Source of the DNA: Hydrogenophaga taeniospiralis CCUG 15921
Lineage (GTDB): Bacteria > Pseudomonadota > Gammaproteobacteria > Burkholderiales > Burkholderiaceae_C
Direction: 5' to 3'
Length of the DNA stretch: 64,000 bases
Assembly: GCF_001592305.1 (NCBI RefSeq)
Contig: NZ_BCWR01000003.1
Span: forward strand, 34,849 to 98,848
The notes beneath the pieces were generated by a model. That model was not told the DNA's origin. It searched no databases and saw nothing but the letters and a program-made list of their open reading frames with translations. The position numbers and the translations under genes are program-made. Positions 42,781 to 52,361 of the stretch are shown one piece after another (position 1 is the stretch's first letter; every line of letters begins with the position of its first letter).

Positions 42781-44118
42781 ATGAGCAAAAAAGTCTTCAT
42801 CAAAACCTTCGGCTGCCAGATGAACGAGTACGACTCGGACAAGATGGCCGACGTGCTGGGCGCGGCCCAGGGCTACGAGCAGACGCAGGACGTCGAAGAA
42901 GCCGACCTGATCCTGTTCAACACCTGCTCGGTGCGCGAGAAGGCGCAGGAAAAGGTGTTTTCCGACCTCGGCCGCGTGCAGCACCTGAAGAAAAAAGGCG
43001 TGTTGATCGGCGTGGGTGGTTGCGTGGCCAGCCAGGAAGGCGCCGAGATCATCAAACGCGCGCCCTATGTGGACGTGGTGTTCGGCCCGCAGACCCTGCA
43101 CCGCCTGCCCGAGCTGCTGAACCAGCGCTCCGCGCAGGCGCGGCCACAGGTGGACATCAGTTTTCCCGAGATCGAGAAATTCGACCACCTGCCGCCCGCG
43201 CGCGTGGACGGCGCGACTGCCTTCGTCTCCATCATGGAAGGCTGTTCCAAATACTGCAGCTACTGCGTGGTGCCCTACACGCGCGGTGACGAGGTGAGCC
43301 GGCCGTTCGAAGACGTGCTGGTGGAGATCGCCGGCCTGGCCGACCAGGGCGTGCGCGAGGTCAACCTGCTGGGTCAGAACGTCAACGCCTACCGCGGCAA
43401 GATGGGCGACACGGCCGAGATCGCCGACTTCGCCCTGCTGCTCGAATACGTGGCCGACATCCCGGGCATCGAGCGCATCCGCTACACCACCAGCCACCCC
43501 AACGAGTTCACACCGCGCCTGATCGAGGCCTACGGCAAGATCCCCAAGCTCGCCAACCACCTGCACCTGCCGGTGCAGCACGGCAGCGACCGCATCCTCA
43601 TGGCCATGAAGCGCGGCTACACCGCCATGGAATACAAGAGCACCATCCGCAAGCTGCGCGCGATCCGGCCCGACATCGCCATGAGCAGCGACTTCATCGT
43701 CGGCTTTCCCGGCGAAACCGAAGACGACTTCCAGAAGATGATGAAGCTCATCACCGACGTGGGGTTCGACACCAGCTTCAGCTTCATCTTCAGCCCACGC
43801 CCGGGCACGCCCGCGGCCAACCTGCCCGACGACACGCCACACGACGTGAAGCTCAAGCGCCTGCAGCACCTGCAGGCCACGATCGAAGACAACGTGCGCC
43901 GCATCAGCGCCAGCCGGCAAGGCACGGTGCAACGCATCCTGGTCGAAGGCCCCTCGCGCAAATCCACCCCCGAGGCGCCTGAGTTCATGGGCCGCACCGA
44001 GTGCAACCGGGTGGTGAACTTTGACGCCGGCCCGAACGCCGCGCGCCTGGTCGGCCAGATGATCGACGTGCGCATCAGCGAAGCCTTCCCACACTCGCTG
44101 CGCGGCGAGGTCGCATGA
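42781..44118 (+). CDS. miaB: tRNA-2-methylthio-N6-dimethylallyladenosine synthase MiaB
   Basis: This is a 445-residue radical SAM enzyme that adds a methylthio group to i6A37 of tRNA. The N-terminal cluster ligands appear in [12 protein letters not shown] (C12), [10 protein letters not shown] (about C49) and [10 protein letters not shown] (about C83). The radical SAM cluster [15 protein letters not shown] is near residue 155, and a C-terminal TRAM domain ends the protein. Its stop codon is the first part of a short intergenic repeat that separates it from glrK. Confidence 0.97.
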
Positions 44119-44185
44119 GCGCCGCCCGGCCGTTCCGAAGGCGCTCAGCCCCGCAGTGCCCAGCACGGAGAGTGGTCCAGTGAGC
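44115..44185 (+). repeat. Stop-to-start intergenic repeat, family 2, copy 1
   Basis: This 71-bp unit begins at ATGAG containing the miaB stop TGA and ends at GTGAGC, a possible start codon. It aligns closely with 46339-46415: CCGGCCGTT, GAAGGC/AAAGGC, CTCAGCCCCGC, GCACGGAG and TCCA are shared in order. CACGGAGAG lies about nine bases before the GTG and would act as a ribosome binding site. Confidence 0.75.
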
Positions 44186-44245
44186 GCCCCGAAACGCCTG
44201 CGGCGCCCCGGGCGACCGCTCAACCCGGGCCACGCACTGCCGTGA
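44180..44245 (+). CDS. Possible 21-codon leader ORF coupled to glrK
   Basis: A GTG preceded by GGAGAG opens a 21-codon reading frame (MSAPKRLRRPGRPLNPGHA...) rich in Arg and Pro. Its TGA overlaps the GTG start of glrK (GTGA). glrK itself has no clear ribosome binding site, so re-initiation after this short ORF is plausible. The reading frame could also be chance. Confidence 0.35.
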   Translation: MSAPKRLRRPGRPLNPGHALP

Positions 44246-45660
44246 AAGCCCTGCGCTTCTCGTTCCAGCAACTGCTGCTGGTGGCCTTTCTGCTGATCGG
44301 CGCCCTGCTGGGTGCGGCCGCCCTGCGGGCCCTGTTCTCACTCGAAAGCCTGATGGCGCAGAGCCGCGAGAGCGCGGCGCAGGCGATCGCCCTGTCCACG
44401 GCGGCGCAGTCGCTGGGCGAACGCAGCCTGACCATGGAGCGCGCGGCGCGCCAGTCGCTGGTGCTGCGCGACAGCCAGTTGCGCAAGCGTTTCGACGAAG
44501 CCGCCGGCAACGCCCGGGACATCCTGCACCGACTCGAAGAGAACGAGTTGCCGCCCGAATTCTCGACCCCCTGGCGCGAGCAGCTCACCCACATCACGGG
44601 GCTGCTCGACGGTGAACCCGAAACCGCGCTGGACCGCGAGCGTGAGGTGGCGCTGGCCTTTCGCGAACTCAACGACCACAACACGGTGATCGCACAAAAG
44701 GTGCAGGCCATCATCGGCGGGCGCAACGAGGCGCTGCAGGCCGGTTTCGAGACCAGCCGCCAGCAGCTCACCCAGCAGGTGGTCGGCTCCATCGCTCTGG
44801 CCGCGGTGATGGCGCTGGCGTTTGGCGTCTGGCTGGCTCGGCCGTTTCAGCGGCTGGAAAAGGCCATCGTCGGCCTGGGTGAGAACCGACTGGACACGCC
44901 GATCGACATCCAGGGGCCGTCGGACGTGCGCAGGGTGAGCCAGCAGCTCGACTGGCTGCGCCTGCGCCTGACCGAACTCGATGCCGACAAGGCCCGTTTT
45001 TTGCGCCACATCTCCCACGAGCTCAAGACGCCGCTGGCCTCGCTGCACGAGGGTGTGGCGGTGCTGGGCGACGGCGTGGCCGGCGCGCTGAACGCCAACC
45101 AGGCCGAGGTGGTGAACATCCTGCAGCACAACACGCAGTTGCTGCAGCACCAGATCGAAGCCCTGCTGCGTTTCAACGCGGCTGCCTTCGAAGCGCGCCA
45201 GCTCAAGCGGGAAAACACCAACCTGCTGGCGCTGCTGGAAGACCAGATCGACGCCCAGCGCCTGCACTGGCAGGCCCACCAACTGACGGTGCAGGTGGAA
45301 GGCCAGCCGGTGTTCCTGCAGATCGACCGCGAAAAGATCGCTTCCGCGGTGGGCAACCTGCTGTCCAACGCGATCCGTTATTCACCCCATGGCGGGCGCA
45401 TCCAGCTGCGGCTGCTGGACCTGCCGGGCCGGGCCTCGATCGACATTGCCGACCAGGGCCCCGGCGTGGCCGAGGTGGACCGGGATCGCATCTTCGAACC
45501 CTTCTACCGGGGTGAACGCCAGCCCCTGGACGCCGTGCGCGGCACCGGCATCGGCCTGTCCATCGTGCACGAGTACATTCTGGCCCACGGGGGTCGCATC
45601 GAATTGCTGCCCTACCGCAACGGCGCCCACTTCCGCATCGAGCTTCCCCATGCCACCTGA
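44242..45660 (+). CDS. glrK: Sensor histidine kinase GlrK (QseE-like)
   Basis: This 472-residue inner-membrane kinase is the sensor partner of GlrR. It has two membrane segments (LLLVAFLLIGALLGAAALRA near residue 12 and SIALAAVMALAFGVWLARP near residue 180) around a periplasmic helical sensor. A HAMP domain follows, then HisKA with HISHELKTPLASLHEG near residue 258 and the ATPase core (LLSNAIRYSP, DQGPGV, RGTGIGLSIVHEYI). The order kinase-lipoprotein-regulator is that of enterobacterial glrK-qseG-glrR. A GTG start at 44242 is used. Confidence 0.93.
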   Translation: MKALRFSFQQLLLVAFLLIGALLGAAALRALFSLESLMAQSRESAAQAIALSTAAQSLGERSLTMERAARQSLVLRDSQLRKRFDEAAGNARDILHRLEENELPPEFSTPWREQLTHITGLLDGEPETALDREREVALAFRELNDHNTVIAQKVQAIIGGRNEALQAGFETSRQQLTQQVVGSIALAAVMALAFGVWLARPFQRLEKAIVGLGENRLDTPIDIQGPSDVRRVSQQLDWLRLRLTELDADKARFLRHISHELKTPLASLHEGVAVLGDGVAGALNANQAEVVNILQHNTQLLQHQIEALLRFNAAAFEARQLKRENTNLLALLEDQIDAQRLHWQAHQLTVQVEGQPVFLQIDREKIASAVGNLLSNAIRYSPHGGRIQLRLLDLPGRASIDIADQGPGVAEVDRDRIFEPFYRGERQPLDAVRGTGIGLSIVHEYILAHGGRIELLPYRNGAHFRIELPHAT

Positions 45661-46342
45661 TCGTTTCCGCCCCACGAATGGCCATCCCCGTTTTCTCGCG
45701 GGTGCGGGCCGCCGTGGCCTGCCCTTCGCCCTCGCGCTGGGTCTCGGCGCCTGCGGCACGGCGCCGCCCCCCCATGCGGTGCCTGCAACGTCCACGCCCC
45801 AGCTGAGCACTGGCGCCCCCGAGCCGGTTTGCGCCCCCCCTGCGGCGCCCACGGTGGAATTGCCACCGGCTTCGCAACCAGGCCTGTGCGCCAACACATC
45901 CTCCGAGTCCGACACGCTGGCCTCGCTGCTGCTCTACACCGAACGCCTGCGCTCCATGAGCGGCGCCGAAGTGACGGGCGAGATCGCCGCGCTGGCCGAT
46001 CCGGGCAACTCGGCTCCGCACCAAATGCGCCTGGCCCTGGCTCTCATGCACACACACCAAGCCGTGGACACCGCCCGGGCGCTGGGCCTGCTGCAACGGG
46101 TCGCCAACCAGAGTGCGCCCGACAACGCGCTGCTCAGACCATTGGCCCGCCTGCTCGCCGCGCGCCTGCAGGACCAGCGCCGGCTGGAGGACACGGTGGA
46201 GCGTCAGGGCCAGCATCTGCGCGACAGCCAGCGCCGCATCGAGCAGCTCAACGAGCGCCTGGAGGCCATGCGCGCCATCGAGCGCAGCCTGACCACACGC
46301 CCCCCACCACCTCCGCCGGGCAGCCGCCCCGCCGCGCCATGA
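45650..46342 (+). CDS. qseG: QseG-like lipoprotein
   Basis: This 230-residue protein lies between glrK and glrR, as qseG does in enterobacteria, where the outer-membrane lipoprotein binds the kinase QseE. A lipobox (LGLGACGTAPP) near residue 35 follows an Arg-rich start. A Pro/Ala-rich linker precedes a helical middle region, and a probable coiled coil (RRLEDTVERQGQHLRDSQ, then RIEQLNERLEAMR) is near residues 175-210, ending in a proline-rich tail. The start at 45650 overlaps the glrK stop by 11 bases. Sequence similarity to QseG is weak by eye, so the name rests on context. Confidence 0.75.
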   Translation: MPPDRFRPTNGHPRFLAGAGRRGLPFALALGLGACGTAPPPHAVPATSTPQLSTGAPEPVCAPPAAPTVELPPASQPGLCANTSSESDTLASLLLYTERLRSMSGAEVTGEIAALADPGNSAPHQMRLALALMHTHQAVDTARALGLLQRVANQSAPDNALLRPLARLLAARLQDQRRLEDTVERQGQHLRDSQRRIEQLNERLEAMRAIERSLTTRPPPPPPGSRPAAP

Positions 46343-46409
46343 GTGCCGTCCGGCCGTTTCAAAGGCAAAGGTGCTCAGCCCCGCGGTGCACGGCACGGAG
46401 GGCACTCCA

Positions 46410-46415
<6 letters not shown>
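46339..46415 (+). repeat. Stop-to-start intergenic repeat, family 2, copy 2
   Basis: This 77-bp unit begins at the qseG stop (ATGAG) and ends at the glrR ATG (ATGAGC). CACGGAGGG sits eight bases before that ATG as its ribosome binding site. It differs from copy 1 by scattered substitutions and a six-base insertion. Confidence 0.78.
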
Positions 46416-47831
<1,416 letters not shown>

Positions 47832-47882
47832 CAGTCACAAGCCCTTGTTTTTCCTGCGTTTTTTTCCTAACCCCTGAGAACC

Positions 47883-47900
47883 TGTCGCCAAACGGCGACA
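47883..47900. promoter_or_regulatory. GlrR-type site TGTC-N10-GACA, proximal
   Basis: TGTCGCCAAACGGCGACA is a near-perfect 18-bp dyad and an exact TGTC-N10-GACA. Its centre is 67 bases from that of the distal site. It lies about 95 bases upstream of the promoter, a usual distance for enhancer sites of sigma-54 activators. Confidence 0.82.
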
Positions 47901-47960
47901 AAAACCAAGGGTTTGCATGGCCCCGAAGACCTGCGAAGGCCTCAAAAAACACCATTCAGC

Positions 47961-47991
47961 GAAAAAGCCTTTGATTTAAAAAGGTTTTTTC
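47961..47991 (+). terminator. A/T-rich hairpin after glrR, with overlapping IHF-like site
   Basis: Arms 47961-47972 (GAAAAAGCCTTT) and 47980-47991 pair over 12 bases with one G-U and a seven-base loop, and the 3' arm holds six T, as in an intrinsic terminator. On the minus strand 47964-47976 reads AATCAAAGGCTTT, matching the IHF consensus WATCAANNNNTTR except for the last base. Either or both uses are possible: ending glrR transcription, and DNA bending between the GlrR sites and the promoter. Confidence 0.55.
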
Positions 47992-47995
47992 AGGT

Positions 47996-48010
47996 TGGCA
48001 CAGGGTTTGC
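47996..48010 (+). promoter_or_regulatory. Sigma-54 promoter upstream of opgG
   Basis: TGGCAC (47996-48001), five bases, TTGC (48007-48010): an exact match to the -24/-12 consensus, with correct spacing. The predicted transcription start is about 48022, next to the opgG ATG at 48023, so the transcript would have almost no leader. Confidence 0.85.
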
Positions 48011-48022
48011 CCTTATTCAGGC

Positions 48023-49594
48023 ATGCCCCTGGATATTTCCCCGATTCCCACCCGCCGACGTCTGCGAGCGCACAACACGCTGGGCGCCCTGTTGTTCATG
48101 CTGGCCGCGGCTTGCGCCCATGCCCAGCGCATGGACTGGGACAGCCTGACCGCTCTGGCCCAGGCCCGCGCCCAGAAACCCTTTCAGTCAAATGGCGACA
48201 AGCTGCCTGCCGACCTCGCCGCCCTGGATTACGACCAGGTGCGCGACATCCGGTTCCGGCCCGACCGGGGAACCTGGCGCGCCGAAGCTCTGCCCTTCGA
48301 GGCCCAGTATTTCCACCTCGGCCTGTACCAGACCGCTCCGGTGCGCATCCACGAAATCGCGCCCGACGGCGCGGTGCGCCACCTGCCCTACCGCAGCGAA
48401 GACTTCCACTTTGGCCACAACACGCTCGACACGAAGGCCTGGGGCGATCTCGGCCACGCCGGCTTCCGCGTGCACTACCCGCTGAACTCAACCGCCTACA
48501 AGGACGAACTGATCGTGTTTCTGGGGGCGAGCTACTTCCGCGCTTTGGGAGCGGGCCAGCAATACGGCCTGTCGGCCCGCGGCCTGGCCATCGACACGGT
48601 GGGCGGCAGCGGCGAGGAATTCCCGCGTTTCACCGAGTTCTGGCTGGTGCGCCCCACGCCCGACGCCAAGGAACTGACCATCTACGCGCTGCTGGAATCG
48701 CCGCGCAGCACCGGTGCCTACCGCTTCGTGGTGCGCCCGGGCACGGAAACCGTCACCACCGTGACCGCCCGGGCGTTCCTGCGTCAGGGCGCGGGCCCGG
48801 TGGCCACGCTGGGCCTGGCGCCGCTCACCAGCATGTTTCTCTCGGGCGAAAACCAGCCCATGCCCGGCGACTTCCGCCCCGAGGTGCACGACTCCGACGG
48901 CCTGATGATGGTCAGTGGCGAAGGCGAGTGGCTCTGGCGCCCGCTGCAACGCCCCAAGTCGCCGATGGTGAACTCCTTCACCATGACCAACCCGCGCGGT
49001 TTCGGCCTGATGCAGCGCGACCGCAGCTTCGCCAACTACCAGGACGTGGAGGCCCGCTACGAGCGCCGCCCCAGCGCCTGGGTCAAACCCCTGGGCGACT
49101 GGGGCCCCGGCCGGGTCGAACTGATGCAACTGGCCACGCCCGACGAGACGCACGACAACATCGTGGCGTACTGGGTGCCGGCCCGCCTGCCCGCGCCCGG
49201 GCAGCCGCTGGAATGGGCCTATGAACTGCACTGGCAGGGCGAGGCGCAGCAGCGTCCGCCCTCGTCCTGGGTCACCCAGACCCGCCGCGGCTATGGCTAC
49301 ACCAAGCTCAGCGAGGCCGAGCAGATCCGCCAACCGCAATACGTGATCGACTTCGCCGGCCCCGCCCTGGACGCGCTGCCCGCCGACGCGCCGGTGCGCG
49401 CCGTGGTGACCAGCAACGCCAACGGCCGGGTGCTCGAACAGGTGGCCTACCCCAACCCCGCCACGCGCAGCTGGCGCGTGACCCTGCGCGTGCAGCGCAT
49501 CGACCCGACCCAGCCGGTCGAGCTGCGCGCCTTTCTCCAACACAACAACGACACCGTGAGCGAAACATGGACACATCTACTGCTTCCCGAATGA
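48023..49594 (+). CDS. opgG: Glucans biosynthesis protein G (periplasmic)
   Basis: This 523-residue periplasmic protein is needed to make osmoregulated periplasmic glucans from the beta-1,2 backbone produced by OpgH. A signal peptide (LGALLFMLAAACAHAQ, after a basic start RRRLRAH) ends near residue 35. The MdoG domain follows: LDYDQVRDIRFRPDRGTW near residue 70, LPFEAQYFHLG, and FGLMQRDRSFANYQDVEA near residue 330. No Shine-Dalgarno sequence precedes the ATG, and no better start is available without losing the signal peptide. It overlaps opgH by 28 bases. Confidence 0.95.
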   Translation: MPLDISPIPTRRRLRAHNTLGALLFMLAAACAHAQRMDWDSLTALAQARAQKPFQSNGDKLPADLAALDYDQVRDIRFRPDRGTWRAEALPFEAQYFHLGLYQTAPVRIHEIAPDGAVRHLPYRSEDFHFGHNTLDTKAWGDLGHAGFRVHYPLNSTAYKDELIVFLGASYFRALGAGQQYGLSARGLAIDTVGGSGEEFPRFTEFWLVRPTPDAKELTIYALLESPRSTGAYRFVVRPGTETVTTVTARAFLRQGAGPVATLGLAPLTSMFLSGENQPMPGDFRPEVHDSDGLMMVSGEGEWLWRPLQRPKSPMVNSFTMTNPRGFGLMQRDRSFANYQDVEARYERRPSAWVKPLGDWGPGRVELMQLATPDETHDNIVAYWVPARLPAPGQPLEWAYELHWQGEAQQRPPSSWVTQTRRGYGYTKLSEAEQIRQPQYVIDFAGPALDALPADAPVRAVVTSNANGRVLEQVAYPNPATRSWRVTLRVQRIDPTQPVELRAFLQHNNDTVSETWTHLLLPE

Positions 49595-51555
49595 GCGCCA
49601 CACCGTCGGCGCGCAGCCTGCTGCGCGAGGAACGCCACCCGAACGCCGTCACCGCGCCACCGATCAACCGCGGCTCCATGGTGCCGCGCCCCTGGCGGGG
49701 TTTCTGGAACAGCATCGGCACCGCCCTGCTGAGCGCGGCCAGCAGCGTGCTGCCCCCGCGCACGCCCGCCACGCCCGCCGTGGAAGTGCCCGCCCCCATG
49801 GCCTGGGAGCGTGCGGCCAACCTGCGCCGCGGTGTGTTCGTGCTGCTCACCGTGCTGAGCACGGTACTGGCGGCCAGCCTGTTCGCCGATGCCCAGCCCG
49901 TGCACGAAAACACCTGGCTGCAAACCGGCCAGCTGGTGCTGTTCGTGGTGCTCTCGGCCTGGGTGGTCACGGGCTTCGTGACCGCGCTGATGGGCTTCTG
50001 GGTCTCGCTGCGCGGCGACGCGCACACCCTCTCGGCCGCTTCGGTGCGGCACCACCCCATGAACCCCGATGCACGCACGGCCATCATCATGCCGATCTGC
50101 AACGAGGATGTGGCCACCGTGTTCGCCGGCCTGCGCGCCACCTGCGAATCGCTCGCCGGCACCGGCCACGCGCGGCAGTTCGACGTGTTCGTGCTCTCCG
50201 ACAGCTACGACCCGGCCATCGCCGCGGCCGAACGCAGCGCCTGGGAAGACCTGCGCGCCGCGCTCGCCGCCCAGCCCGAGCTGCCGCAGATCGAGGTGTA
50301 CTACCGCCTGCGCACGCGCCGCACCCACCGCAAAGCCGGCAACGTGGCCGACTTCTGCCGCCGCTGGGGCAAGGACTACCGCTACATGGTGGTGCTCGAC
50401 GCCGACAGCGTCATGAGCGGCAGTTGCCTGGTTTCCATGGTCAAGCTGATGGAAGCCAACCCCCGCGCGGGCATCGTGCAGACCGCCACGCAGGCCATCG
50501 GCCACGCCACCCTGCACGCACGGGCGCAGCAGTTCGCCTCGCGCGTGACCGGCCGCCTGTTCACGCTGGGCATGCAGTTCTGGCAACTGGGCGAGTCCCA
50601 TTACTGGGGCCACAACGCCATCATCCGCGTCGAACCCTTCATGCAGCACTGCGCGCTGGCCCCGATCAAGGGCAAGGGCGGTATGGCCGGCGGCATCATG
50701 TCGCACGACTTCGTGGAAGCTGCGCTGATGCGCCGCGCCGGCTACCACGTGTGGCTGGTCTCCGACCTGACCGGCAGCTACGAACAGCAGCCGCCGGACC
50801 TGCTGAGCGAGCTGCAGCGCGACCGCCGCTGGTGCCAGGGCAACCTGCAGAACTCCCGTCTGATGGCCGAGCCCGGCATTCACCGCGTGCACCGCACCAT
50901 GTTCGCCATCGGCGCCATGTCCTACCTGTCGGCGCCGCTGTGGCTGGCCTTCCTGACCTTCGGCACCGCGCTGTGGATGTCGGACTCCAGCGCACCGTCG
51001 CTCTGGCACGCCGTGCCGGCCGAACTGCGTGGCCTGTGGGCCTGGACGCTGTCCATGCTGTTCCTGCCGCGCGTGCTGGGCCTGCTGGCGGTGTTCCTCA
51101 AAGGCGAGCAGCGGTCTTTCGGCGGAACCGCTGGCCTGCTGGGCAGCGCCACGGTGGAAACCGTGCTGGCCCTGCTGCAGGCGCCCATCCGCATGCTGGC
51201 GCATTCGCTGTTCGTGTTGGTGGCGCTCACCGGCCTGAAGCTGGAATGGAAGTCGCCTCCGCGCGAAGCGTCCGGCGTGACCTGGCGCGACGCCGTGGTG
51301 CGTCTGGCCCCCATGACCGCCGTGATCGGCCTGCTGGCCCTGGGTGTCGCCGCCATCAACGTCGAGGCGCTGATCTGGCTCGCCCCCGTGGCCCTGCCGC
51401 TGCTGCTGTCGGTGCCGCTGACCGTGGCCACCAGCCACGTGGACCTGGGCACCTGGATGCGCTCGCGCGGTGTGCTGCTGATCCCCGAAGAGTCGTGGTC
51501 CCCCGCGGTGCTGCGCCGCGCCTGGCGCCACGCCAGCCGGCTGGCTGCAGCGTAG
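49567..51555 (+). CDS. opgH: Glucans biosynthesis glucosyltransferase H
   Basis: This is a 662-residue inner-membrane family 2 glycosyltransferase that polymerises the glucan backbone from UDP-glucose. Membrane segments flank a cytoplasmic catalytic domain with VVLDADSVMSG (DxD) near residue 275, then the RDRRWCQGN (QxxRW) motif near residue 420. Several further helices follow to the C-terminus. The start at 49567 overlaps opgG by 28 bases; an ATG at 49591 (four-base overlap) is an alternative. In E. coli OpgH also inhibits FtsZ in response to UDP-glucose; this is not testable here. Confidence 0.95.
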   Translation: MDTSTASRMSATPSARSLLREERHPNAVTAPPINRGSMVPRPWRGFWNSIGTALLSAASSVLPPRTPATPAVEVPAPMAWERAANLRRGVFVLLTVLSTVLAASLFADAQPVHENTWLQTGQLVLFVVLSAWVVTGFVTALMGFWVSLRGDAHTLSAASVRHHPMNPDARTAIIMPICNEDVATVFAGLRATCESLAGTGHARQFDVFVLSDSYDPAIAAAERSAWEDLRAALAAQPELPQIEVYYRLRTRRTHRKAGNVADFCRRWGKDYRYMVVLDADSVMSGSCLVSMVKLMEANPRAGIVQTATQAIGHATLHARAQQFASRVTGRLFTLGMQFWQLGESHYWGHNAIIRVEPFMQHCALAPIKGKGGMAGGIMSHDFVEAALMRRAGYHVWLVSDLTGSYEQQPPDLLSELQRDRRWCQGNLQNSRLMAEPGIHRVHRTMFAIGAMSYLSAPLWLAFLTFGTALWMSDSSAPSLWHAVPAELRGLWAWTLSMLFLPRVLGLLAVFLKGEQRSFGGTAGLLGSATVETVLALLQAPIRMLAHSLFVLVALTGLKLEWKSPPREASGVTWRDAVVRLAPMTAVIGLLALGVAAINVEALIWLAPVALPLLLSVPLTVATSHVDLGTWMRSRGVLLIPEESWSPAVLRRAWRHASRLAAA

Positions 51556-51558
51556 AGG

Positions 51559-51632
51559 ACTCCCCCCGCAGCGCTTCGCGCTACCCCTCAAGGGGCGGCA
51601 CTGGCCGTCCGGCAAAGCCGGCCCGGCGGTGC
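51559..51632. repeat. Dispersed GC-rich repeat, family 1, copy C
   Basis: The order of blocks is CCCCCCGCAGCGCTTCGCGC, TACCCCTCAAGGGGCGG, then CCGGCAAAGCCGGCCCGG, as in copy B on the opposite strand. It follows opgH and lies before a convergent minus-strand gene. Bases 51633-51734 show nothing else I recognise. Confidence 0.75.
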
Positions 51633-51734
51633 CCTGGGCTGGACCACTTCGTTCATCAGTGCGGGCTTTGAACGACTCAGGCCCGGCCGCTGATGCCATC
51701 TCCTGGAAGCCGCAGCGAGCGCGGGGGCCATGCT

Positions 51735-52361
51735 TCAGTTCTGTGGAGGCTTCAGGTAGCGTTCATCGGACCAGGTGGCCAGCCAGCCCGGCACAAAGGC
51801 CACGAAGATCGCGGTGAACATGCCGGTGAGGAAGGCATCGCCCCAGGCCATGAGCCAGCGCGCGACCAGCGCCTGCTCCAGGGCCACGCCGCCGGCCAGG
51901 CGGTAACCGACCTCCCGCACCACGCCGGCCAGAAACATGGCGGCGGCGGTGCCCAGAAAACCGCGGCCCAGGGTGTAGACGAAGGGGTTGGGGGGCAACC
52001 AGCGCCGCAGCACCGCCCCGATGCCCAGCGCGAGCGTGGCCGGCACCAGTCCGATCCAGACCCCCTGTGAGAGCGCCGCGACAGGGCCGGCCTGGCCCAG
52101 CAGGCCCACCGCCAGCGCCACCAGCGCCAACACCAGCACCGCCAGCGGCCAACCCAGCATGAGCACCAGCAGGCAGGCGCCCGAGAGCTGCACCTGCAGC
52201 CCCTGGGGCATCTTCTGCGGCAGCAGCCAGAGCCAGGGCAACAGCGCCACCGCGGCCAGCGCGGGCGTCAGCAAGGGCCCGCGAAGCATGCGCCAGGGCC
52301 GCAGCCACAAGGCCACGCCCAGGGACAGGACGGCCAGCGAGAGTTCTAGGGCGAACAACAT
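51735..52361 (-). CDS. CbiM-like membrane protein (energy-coupling factor permease family)
   Basis: This 208-residue protein is almost wholly hydrophobic with about six membrane segments. The pattern LQVQLSGACLLVLMLGWPLA, then PFVYTLGRGFLGTAAAMFLAGVV, and a C-terminal WGDAFLTGMFTAIFVAFVP resembles a betaproteobacterial branch of CbiM-type substrate-binding subunits. These take up cobalt or nickel in ECF transporters. The histidine-containing N-terminus of CbiM, which binds the metal, is not obvious here, and no CbiQ or CbiO gene is nearby. The ATG at 52361 is used; a GTG eight codons upstream is possible. Confidence 0.65.
   Translation of the reverse strand: MLFALELSLAVLSLGVALWLRPWRMLRGPLLTPALAAVALLPWLWLLPQKMPQGLQVQLSGACLLVLMLGWPLAVLVLALVALAVGLLGQAGPVAALSQGVWIGLVPATLALGIGAVLRRWLPPNPFVYTLGRGFLGTAAAMFLAGVVREVGYRLAGGVALEQALVARWLMAWGDAFLTGMFTAIFVAFVPGWLATWSDERYLKPPQN

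Follow-up and report, generated by a model that had tools for sequence, protein, structure and literature searches.

Organization of the glrR-opgG locus

The window, the 64-kb stretch of Hydrogenophaga taeniospiralis DNA that was analysed, contains a run of genes encoding a sensor histidine kinase, a predicted lipoprotein, a sigma-54-dependent response regulator and the periplasmic glucan proteins OpgG and OpgH (Table 1). The 25 NCBIfam kinase models among the matches listed for the kinase all stay below their cut-offs, and the name GlrK therefore rests on synteny. The start codon of the lipoprotein ORF overlaps the kinase stop codon, and the ORF has no Pfam match. The best NCBIfam match of the regulator is GlrR (PRK15115; 612 bits, residues 25–468), and since this score does not reach the equivalog cut-off of 763 we refer to the protein as GlrR-type. 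Its closest named counterpart, among the best 80 of 582 relatives, is the GlrR of Hydrogenophaga sp. 2FB (L051), with 96% over residues 20–471. The MdoG and MdoH matches follow each other in one direction, as in an opgGH/mdoGH operon. A single match to the sigma-54 DNA-binding domain was found genome-wide, identifying rpoN.

Table 1 Genes and predicted control elements between positions 44242 and 51555 of the window
Feature	Position	Strand	Basis and remarks
Sensor histidine kinase, glrK/qseE position	44242..45660	+	Pfam HisKA and HATPase_c, above cut-off
Predicted lipoprotein, qseG position	45650..46342	+	ORF and translation; lipobox-like LGAC, by eye
glrR, sigma-54-dependent response regulator (REC, AAA+)	46371..47831	+	Pfam Response_reg and Sigma54_activat
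GlrR-type site 1, TGTC-N10-GACA, TGTCGCCGATGAGTGACA	47816..47833	.	Pattern match; kept in relatives
GlrR-type site 2, TGTCGCCAAACGGCGACA, TGTCGCC-AAAC-GGCGACA	47883..47900	.	67 bp after site 1; spacing conserved
IHF-like site	47964..47976	-	Left end at -58 from predicted start; one mismatch
Sigma-54 promoter (-24/-12), TGGCACAGGGTTTGC, TGGCAC-N5-TTGC	47996..48010	+	Pattern match; GG/GC spacing fits sigma-54
Predicted transcription start, 0-1 nt before opgG ATG	48022..48023	+	12 nt after -12 GC, calibrated on GlmY starts
opgG	48023..49594	+	Pfam MdoG, 635 bits
opgH	49567..51555	+	NCBIfam MdoH, 1154 bits (cut-off 829); overlaps opgG end

Between glrR and opgG lie two palindromes, an IHF-like site and a -24/-12 element, in that order, as a sequence-only reading of this DNA had described. 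Both exact TGTC-N10-GACA sites and the sigma-54 promoter were recovered at the positions that it gave. Site 1 extends into glrR, the stop codon of which (TGA, 47829–47831) lies inside its right half. The IHF-like site is likewise where that reading had placed it, but its minus strand, AATCAA-AGGC-TTT, differs at one position from the IHF consensus WATCAANNNNTTR. The claim that no small-RNA gene fits behind the promoter also held, as only 12 nt separate the -12 GC from the opgG ATG and Rfam gave nothing above cut-off at 44000–52000. With no GlmY RNA behind its promoter, the locus is not of the glmY type. A match to Rfam P18 at 49650–49754 was rejected as far below cut-off. No terminator-like site was found at 47700–48150, and no sigma-70-like promoter in the glrR-opgG gap.

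The sites were compared with chance expectation. In the window TGTC-N10-GACA has three matches against 0.95 expected, with three or more in 4 of 100 shuffles, and the -24/-12 pattern has three against 0.44, a number reached in 1 of 100 shuffles. Genome-wide, TGTC-N10-GACA occurs 65 times versus 53 times for the reversed pattern, and TGTCG-N8-CGACA with one mismatch allowed is not enriched (408 matches versus 536 for its control). The combined pattern gave one forward and one reverse match in the strain's own genome, compared with 3 and 7 for the control, and a looser pattern had matches in 196 of 300 genomes of the order, with control counts of similar size. Within one genome the sites do not go beyond chance; the evidence is the conservation of the ordered arrangement across genera. 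Because the genome-wide counts are near those of the controls, we propose no genome-wide regulon and do not claim opgGH as the sole target.

Conservation of the ordered sites across glrR loci

The best 80 of 582 confirmed relatives provided a set of named loci (L050–L129), in which glrR is followed by opgG (34 loci), by opgH without opgG (26) or by another gene (20). We defined a strict ordered pattern of two GTCG-N8-CGAC palindromes and TGGCAY-N5-TTGC, close behind glrR. This pattern is present in 46 of the 60 loci with opgG or opgH next, a count that leaves out the 20 in which another gene follows, and comprises 22 of 34 opgG-next and 24 of 26 opgH-next loci. It also occurs in 2 of those 20, and the opg genes are therefore not the sole partner of this promoter type. 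None of 12,000 dinucleotide shuffles contained the pattern, and of 3,824 further windows from these loci a single one matched, at the displaced opgG promoter of L078, described below. In the strict loci the usual distance between palindrome centres is 67 bp (36 of 46), and 95 bp most often separate site 2 from the promoter (27 of 46).

Among the 14 opg-linked loci that fall short of the strict pattern, twelve still have both sites and the promoter in relaxed or shifted form, and in seven of the 14 site 1 takes the TGTC-N10-GACA form of the window itself. Variant or shifted elements account for L098, L099, L100, L101 and L105. The outer bases of the palindromes are fixed, and the inner positions show neither covariation nor compensatory change, as for a protein site.

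Absence of the sites from relatives that keep glrR-opgG synteny had been named by the sequence-only reading as the observation that would speak against it. The opposite was seen: palindromes and a -24/-12-like element precede opgG in 33 of the 34 named opgG loci, the remaining one (L106) having both palindromes and no -24/-12 match. A separate set of loci from genomes of the family agreed: all 19 of the loci L005–L023 have two or more palindromes together with a -24/-12-like element, although some of these strains may also occur in the named set. These loci come from the best 30 places in 46 of 150 family genomes with OpgG at threshold.

IHF matches were counted in the 57 of 60 opg-linked loci with a promoter match, which were reduced to 43 by dereplication at 75% identity. 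A consensus match occupies one of two places, -56 to -58 and -181 to -185, or both, in 37 of these (both in 13); one more locus has it at -193 and five have none. The full consensus stands at -56 to -58 in 25 of 43.

Two further features of the intergenic region were recorded. The promoter spacer is unusually conserved: in 32 of 57 loci TGGCACAGGGTTTGC runs on into CCT or CCC (47996–48013 in the window), so that a short inverted repeat, AGGG-TTTG-CCCT or -CCCC, spans the -12 element. After site 2, many loci have a partly conserved stretch of the ACAAAAAC..GGGGTTTT type (47901–47920 here; read by eye).

Relation of the sites to GlrR

Published consensus sequences for the QseF/GlrR site are TGTN12ACA (PMC6075780) and TGTCN10GACA (PMC8745638), and sites of this kind, two or more, lie upstream of the predicted promoter here. 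The parallel drawn in the earlier reading with enterobacterial glmY was borne out by three enterobacterial members of the named set that serve as positive controls (L125, L127 and L128), where TGTN12ACA sites and a -24/-12 element lie upstream of glrK, directly before an Rfam-detected GlmY. The GlrR C-terminus RNRTEFY is common to L125, L128 and the five opg-linked loci displayed.

In three cases opgG is separated from glrR. G119 has glrR about 50 kb from opgG on the same contig, G089 has an ORF that we take from its motif to be Fic-like between the two genes, and L078, from a Polaromonas MAG, has the full strict set at opgG, displaced 714 nt from glrR by a 219-codon ORF that, judged by its sequence, is presumably HINT- or intein-like. 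The palindromes lie before opgG in G119 and G089 also, and within 500 nt behind glrR none of the three has any. Since it is opgG that retains the sites in all three cases, autoregulation of glrR through them is unlikely.

The presence of GlrR was searched in 26 chosen genomes. Seven of these (G108, G118, G090, G104, G060, G115 and G140, of which G104 is only 76% complete) encode an OpgG that is 52–59% identical, and none has a GlrR above 44% identity. Within 500 nt of opgG, 0 of 7 have palindromes, also with the relaxed pattern. G107, G078, G052 and G098, again with no close GlrR, fall outside the opgG reading. At opgG loci without a close GlrR, the only promoter-like elements were a lone -24/-12-like match in each of L024 and L026 and a poor one in L027. 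Ten genomes combine a close GlrR with an OpgG that is more distant (G016, G020, G022, G023, G068, G071, G088, G103, G126 and G136). All ten have the palindromes behind glrR before opgH, with a promoter match within the scanned 500 nt in nine, and the opgG loci of four of them (L031–L034) have no palindrome at opgG. In these comparisons the predicted site set thus follows the glrR-linked opg operon type and the presence of GlrR, and not mere glrR neighbourhood, although these are counts of related genomes and not of independent events.

Position of the opgG start codon

An in-frame opgG ATG lies 11–13 nt after the -12 GC in 31 of the 34 named opgG loci, and in 17 of these 31 there is no later ATG, GTG or TTG before the start of the OpgG alignment. 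The same holds for an in-frame ATG at this position in 14 of 19 family loci, and predicted signal peptides, read by eye, start at that ATG. In the control loci GlmY starts 11–12 nt after the -12 GC. The opgG ATG thus occupies the position at which GlmY RNA starts, and the opgG mRNA is therefore predicted to be leaderless, with an expected 5' leader of 0–2 nt. The eight loci without this geometry (L099, L105 and L106 of the named set; L016, L018, L020, L021 and L023 of the site-bearing family loci) have the opgG start farther from the promoter or no promoter match.

Before the opgG ATG, pairing with the anti-Shine-Dalgarno sequence is weak: 27 of 30 loci do not exceed -2.2 kcal/mol in strength, and the other three lie between -3.1 and -4.7 kcal/mol. 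Five leadered loci gave -6.6 to -9.2 kcal/mol; as they were chosen for a visible ribosome site, they serve as an illustration and not as a control.

Loci with opgH alone

The same geometry recurs where opgH follows glrR without opgG. Twenty of the 26 opgH-next loci have an ATG at 12 nt behind the -12 GC; in four others the distance is 14 nt and the ATG is in frame with opgH, and L098 and L101 differ. In 19 loci (L055–L059, L061–L064, L066, L068–L071, L073, L084, L086, L094 and L095) the ATG at the leaderless position opens an ORF of about 67 codons between the promoter and opgH, which in the eight loci examined stops just before the opgH ATG. Counted over all pairs, which are not independent, codons that differ by a single base show 2214 synonymous and 1573 non-synonymous changes. 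A protein search with the 67-aa ORF returned 107 relatives; all named ones are hypothetical proteins, with Variovorax as a frequent source, and none has a Pfam domain listed. The ORF looks like a real small protein. To the sequence-only reading this analysis adds the predicted leaderless mRNA, the version with opgH alone and the loci with separated glrR.

Other glrR loci

The remaining glrR loci and the regulators themselves offer further observations. In other beta-proteobacterial loci, different genes stand after the element that lies behind glrR. In L109 and L112 these are ORFs that are presumably BON-domain-like, an assignment we make by sequence type, and L112 gave no -24/-12 match to the pattern used. 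L122, L123, L124 and L129, from Thiobacillus and other MAGs, have a -24/-12-like element before a small membrane protein beginning MFGWA and one GTCG-N8-CGAC palindrome near the glrR end. Paired GTCG-N8-CGAC palindromes, 65–68 bp apart, are located upstream of glrK in L109, L112, L113, L114, L115 and L116, and the pattern used detected no clear -24/-12 element at these six loci. Thauera-type loci, with the palindrome pair again upstream of glrK, likewise gave no -24/-12 match to that pattern. The sigma-54 contact motif of the window GlrR is GAFTDA, not GAFTGA. Across L050–L129, GAFTDA is found in the GlrR of 27 of 34 opgG-next loci, 25 of 26 opgH-next loci and 0 of 20 other loci, and GAFTGA in that of 17 of the 20 loci followed by neither opgG nor opgH.

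Discussion

Our analysis indicates that the conserved glrR-opgG module is very probably a GlrR-activated sigma-54 promoter of opgGH, with its RNA predicted to start at the opgG AUG. The basis for this reading is the order of the elements, their fixed spacing and conservation, their persistence when glrR is separated, their absence from the genomes read that have no close GlrR, and the position of the ATG. The earlier prediction that the target is the periplasmic glucan operon, and not a small RNA, is supported by the conserved sites before opgG and by the lack of an Rfam small RNA at the locus. By analogy with E. coli (PMC6075780), the kinase, probably together with the lipoprotein in the qseG position, would phosphorylate GlrR in response to an envelope signal. 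Dimers of phosphorylated GlrR would then bind the two palindromes, IHF would bend the DNA, and the AAA+ domain of GlrR would open the sigma-54 polymerase. The resulting transcript would have a 5' leader of 0–2 nt, with ribosomes starting on its 5'-terminal AUG, and OpgG would be made first and OpgH second, both making periplasmic glucans. Where opgG is missing, the corresponding product would be a leaderless mRNA for the conserved 67-aa protein and then opgH (the Variovorax type) or a near-leaderless mRNA for opgH itself (the Pseudorhodoferax type).

Other explanations of the palindromes were considered. As inverted repeats, the first of which overlaps the glrR stop codon, they might form RNA hairpins, acting as a terminator or attenuator of a glrR-opgG transcript, and not be protein sites at all. 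We rejected this reading, which we regard as scarcely credible, since no terminator-like site was detected at 47700–48150 and the fixed outer bases are not accompanied by compensatory change at the inner ones; the constant 67 bp and 95 bp spacings up to the promoter also argue against it, as does the retention of the sites in loci with a different upstream gene. A real sigma-54 promoter with palindromes bound by an activator other than GlrR is conceivable in a genome with many possible regulators, the GlrR query alone giving 107 first-look candidates. The agreement of the sites with the published QseF/GlrR consensus (PMC6075780, PMC8745638), the C-terminus shared with enterobacterial GlrR and the lack of palindromes at opgG in the seven genomes without a close GlrR make this very improbable.

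A third explanation accepts the GlrR-controlled promoter and concerns the RNA. Read-through from glrR might provide the main opgG mRNA in growing cells, which would usually have a long leader, with the leaderless form a minor species. The two genes have the same orientation, and neither a terminator nor a sigma-70-like promoter was found between them. Shine-Dalgarno pairing at the expected place is weak, however, and a longer opgG mRNA would therefore gain little; moreover, the sites and the position of the ATG persist with another upstream gene, as in L013 and L078. We judge predominant read-through to be unlikely, if clearly less so than either alternative for the palindromes.

Beyond the GlrR-activated, leaderless opgGH promoter, a broader proposal can be put forward tentatively. 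In this lineage GlrR and sigma-54 may act together as a switch dedicated to the envelope, each transcript starting directly with the initiation codon of its first gene, be it opgG, the 67-aa protein gene or opgH. Transcription and leaderless translation might then both be governed by this promoter, giving glucan synthesis an advantage under conditions that impair normal initiation. The 67-aa protein might in that case act as a partner of OpgH. We see this wider scheme as possible, with the balance somewhat against it.

These findings point to a specific predicted target for the GlrK/GlrR system of this group: the osmoregulated periplasmic glucans, or only OpgH, reached without an intervening small RNA. 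The data also suggest that one regulator and promoter design has been coupled to different envelope genes by lineage: GlmY in enterobacteria, opgGH or opgH here and, in other beta-proteobacteria, proteins of the BON-domain-like kind or small membrane proteins. Moreover, since the start codon keeps its position, leaderless translation from a promoter that depends on an activator is open to direct test.

The sequence-only reading knew of no report of a GlrR-opgGH link, and in the open-access literature, covered mostly as titles and abstract starts, none was found that connects GlrR or RpoN to the regulation of opgG or opgH. The terms opgG, mdoG and glucan are absent from the main text of PMC12316311 and PMC3162934. 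The available text of PMC10100675 contains both GlrR and opgG, with GlrR listed for rpoE and RpoE for opgG and no direct link between them. No open-access paper was found with both leaderless and Comamonadaceae, although leaderless mRNAs from sigma-54 promoters may exist elsewhere. Leaderless mRNAs of Burkholderiales are nevertheless already known: in Cupriavidus metallidurans 4.67% of primary start sites give 5' leaders of less than 5 nt (PMC7563307). That case resembles the one predicted here, but the available text of the report links its leaderless mRNAs neither with a sigma-54 activator nor with a geometry that is kept when the first gene differs.

The closest known counterpart is the glmY promoter of Enterobacteriaceae, which shares two or three TGTN12ACA sites, a -24/-12 element and linkage to glrK-qseG-glrR (PMC6075780, PMC8745638). 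It also has IHF, for which the window has a candidate site with one mismatch. It differs in lying upstream of glrK and driving a small RNA, whereas the promoter in the window lies downstream of glrR, before a protein operon for periplasmic glucans. QseF of E. coli acts on rpoE as well as on glmY (PMC6075780), and its control of rpoE resembles the system proposed here in regulator, sigma factor and envelope output. RpoE is in turn listed, in a table row, as a regulator of E. coli opgG (PMC10100675). Such a route from QseF through rpoE to opgG would use a second sigma factor, whereas the control here is predicted to be direct.
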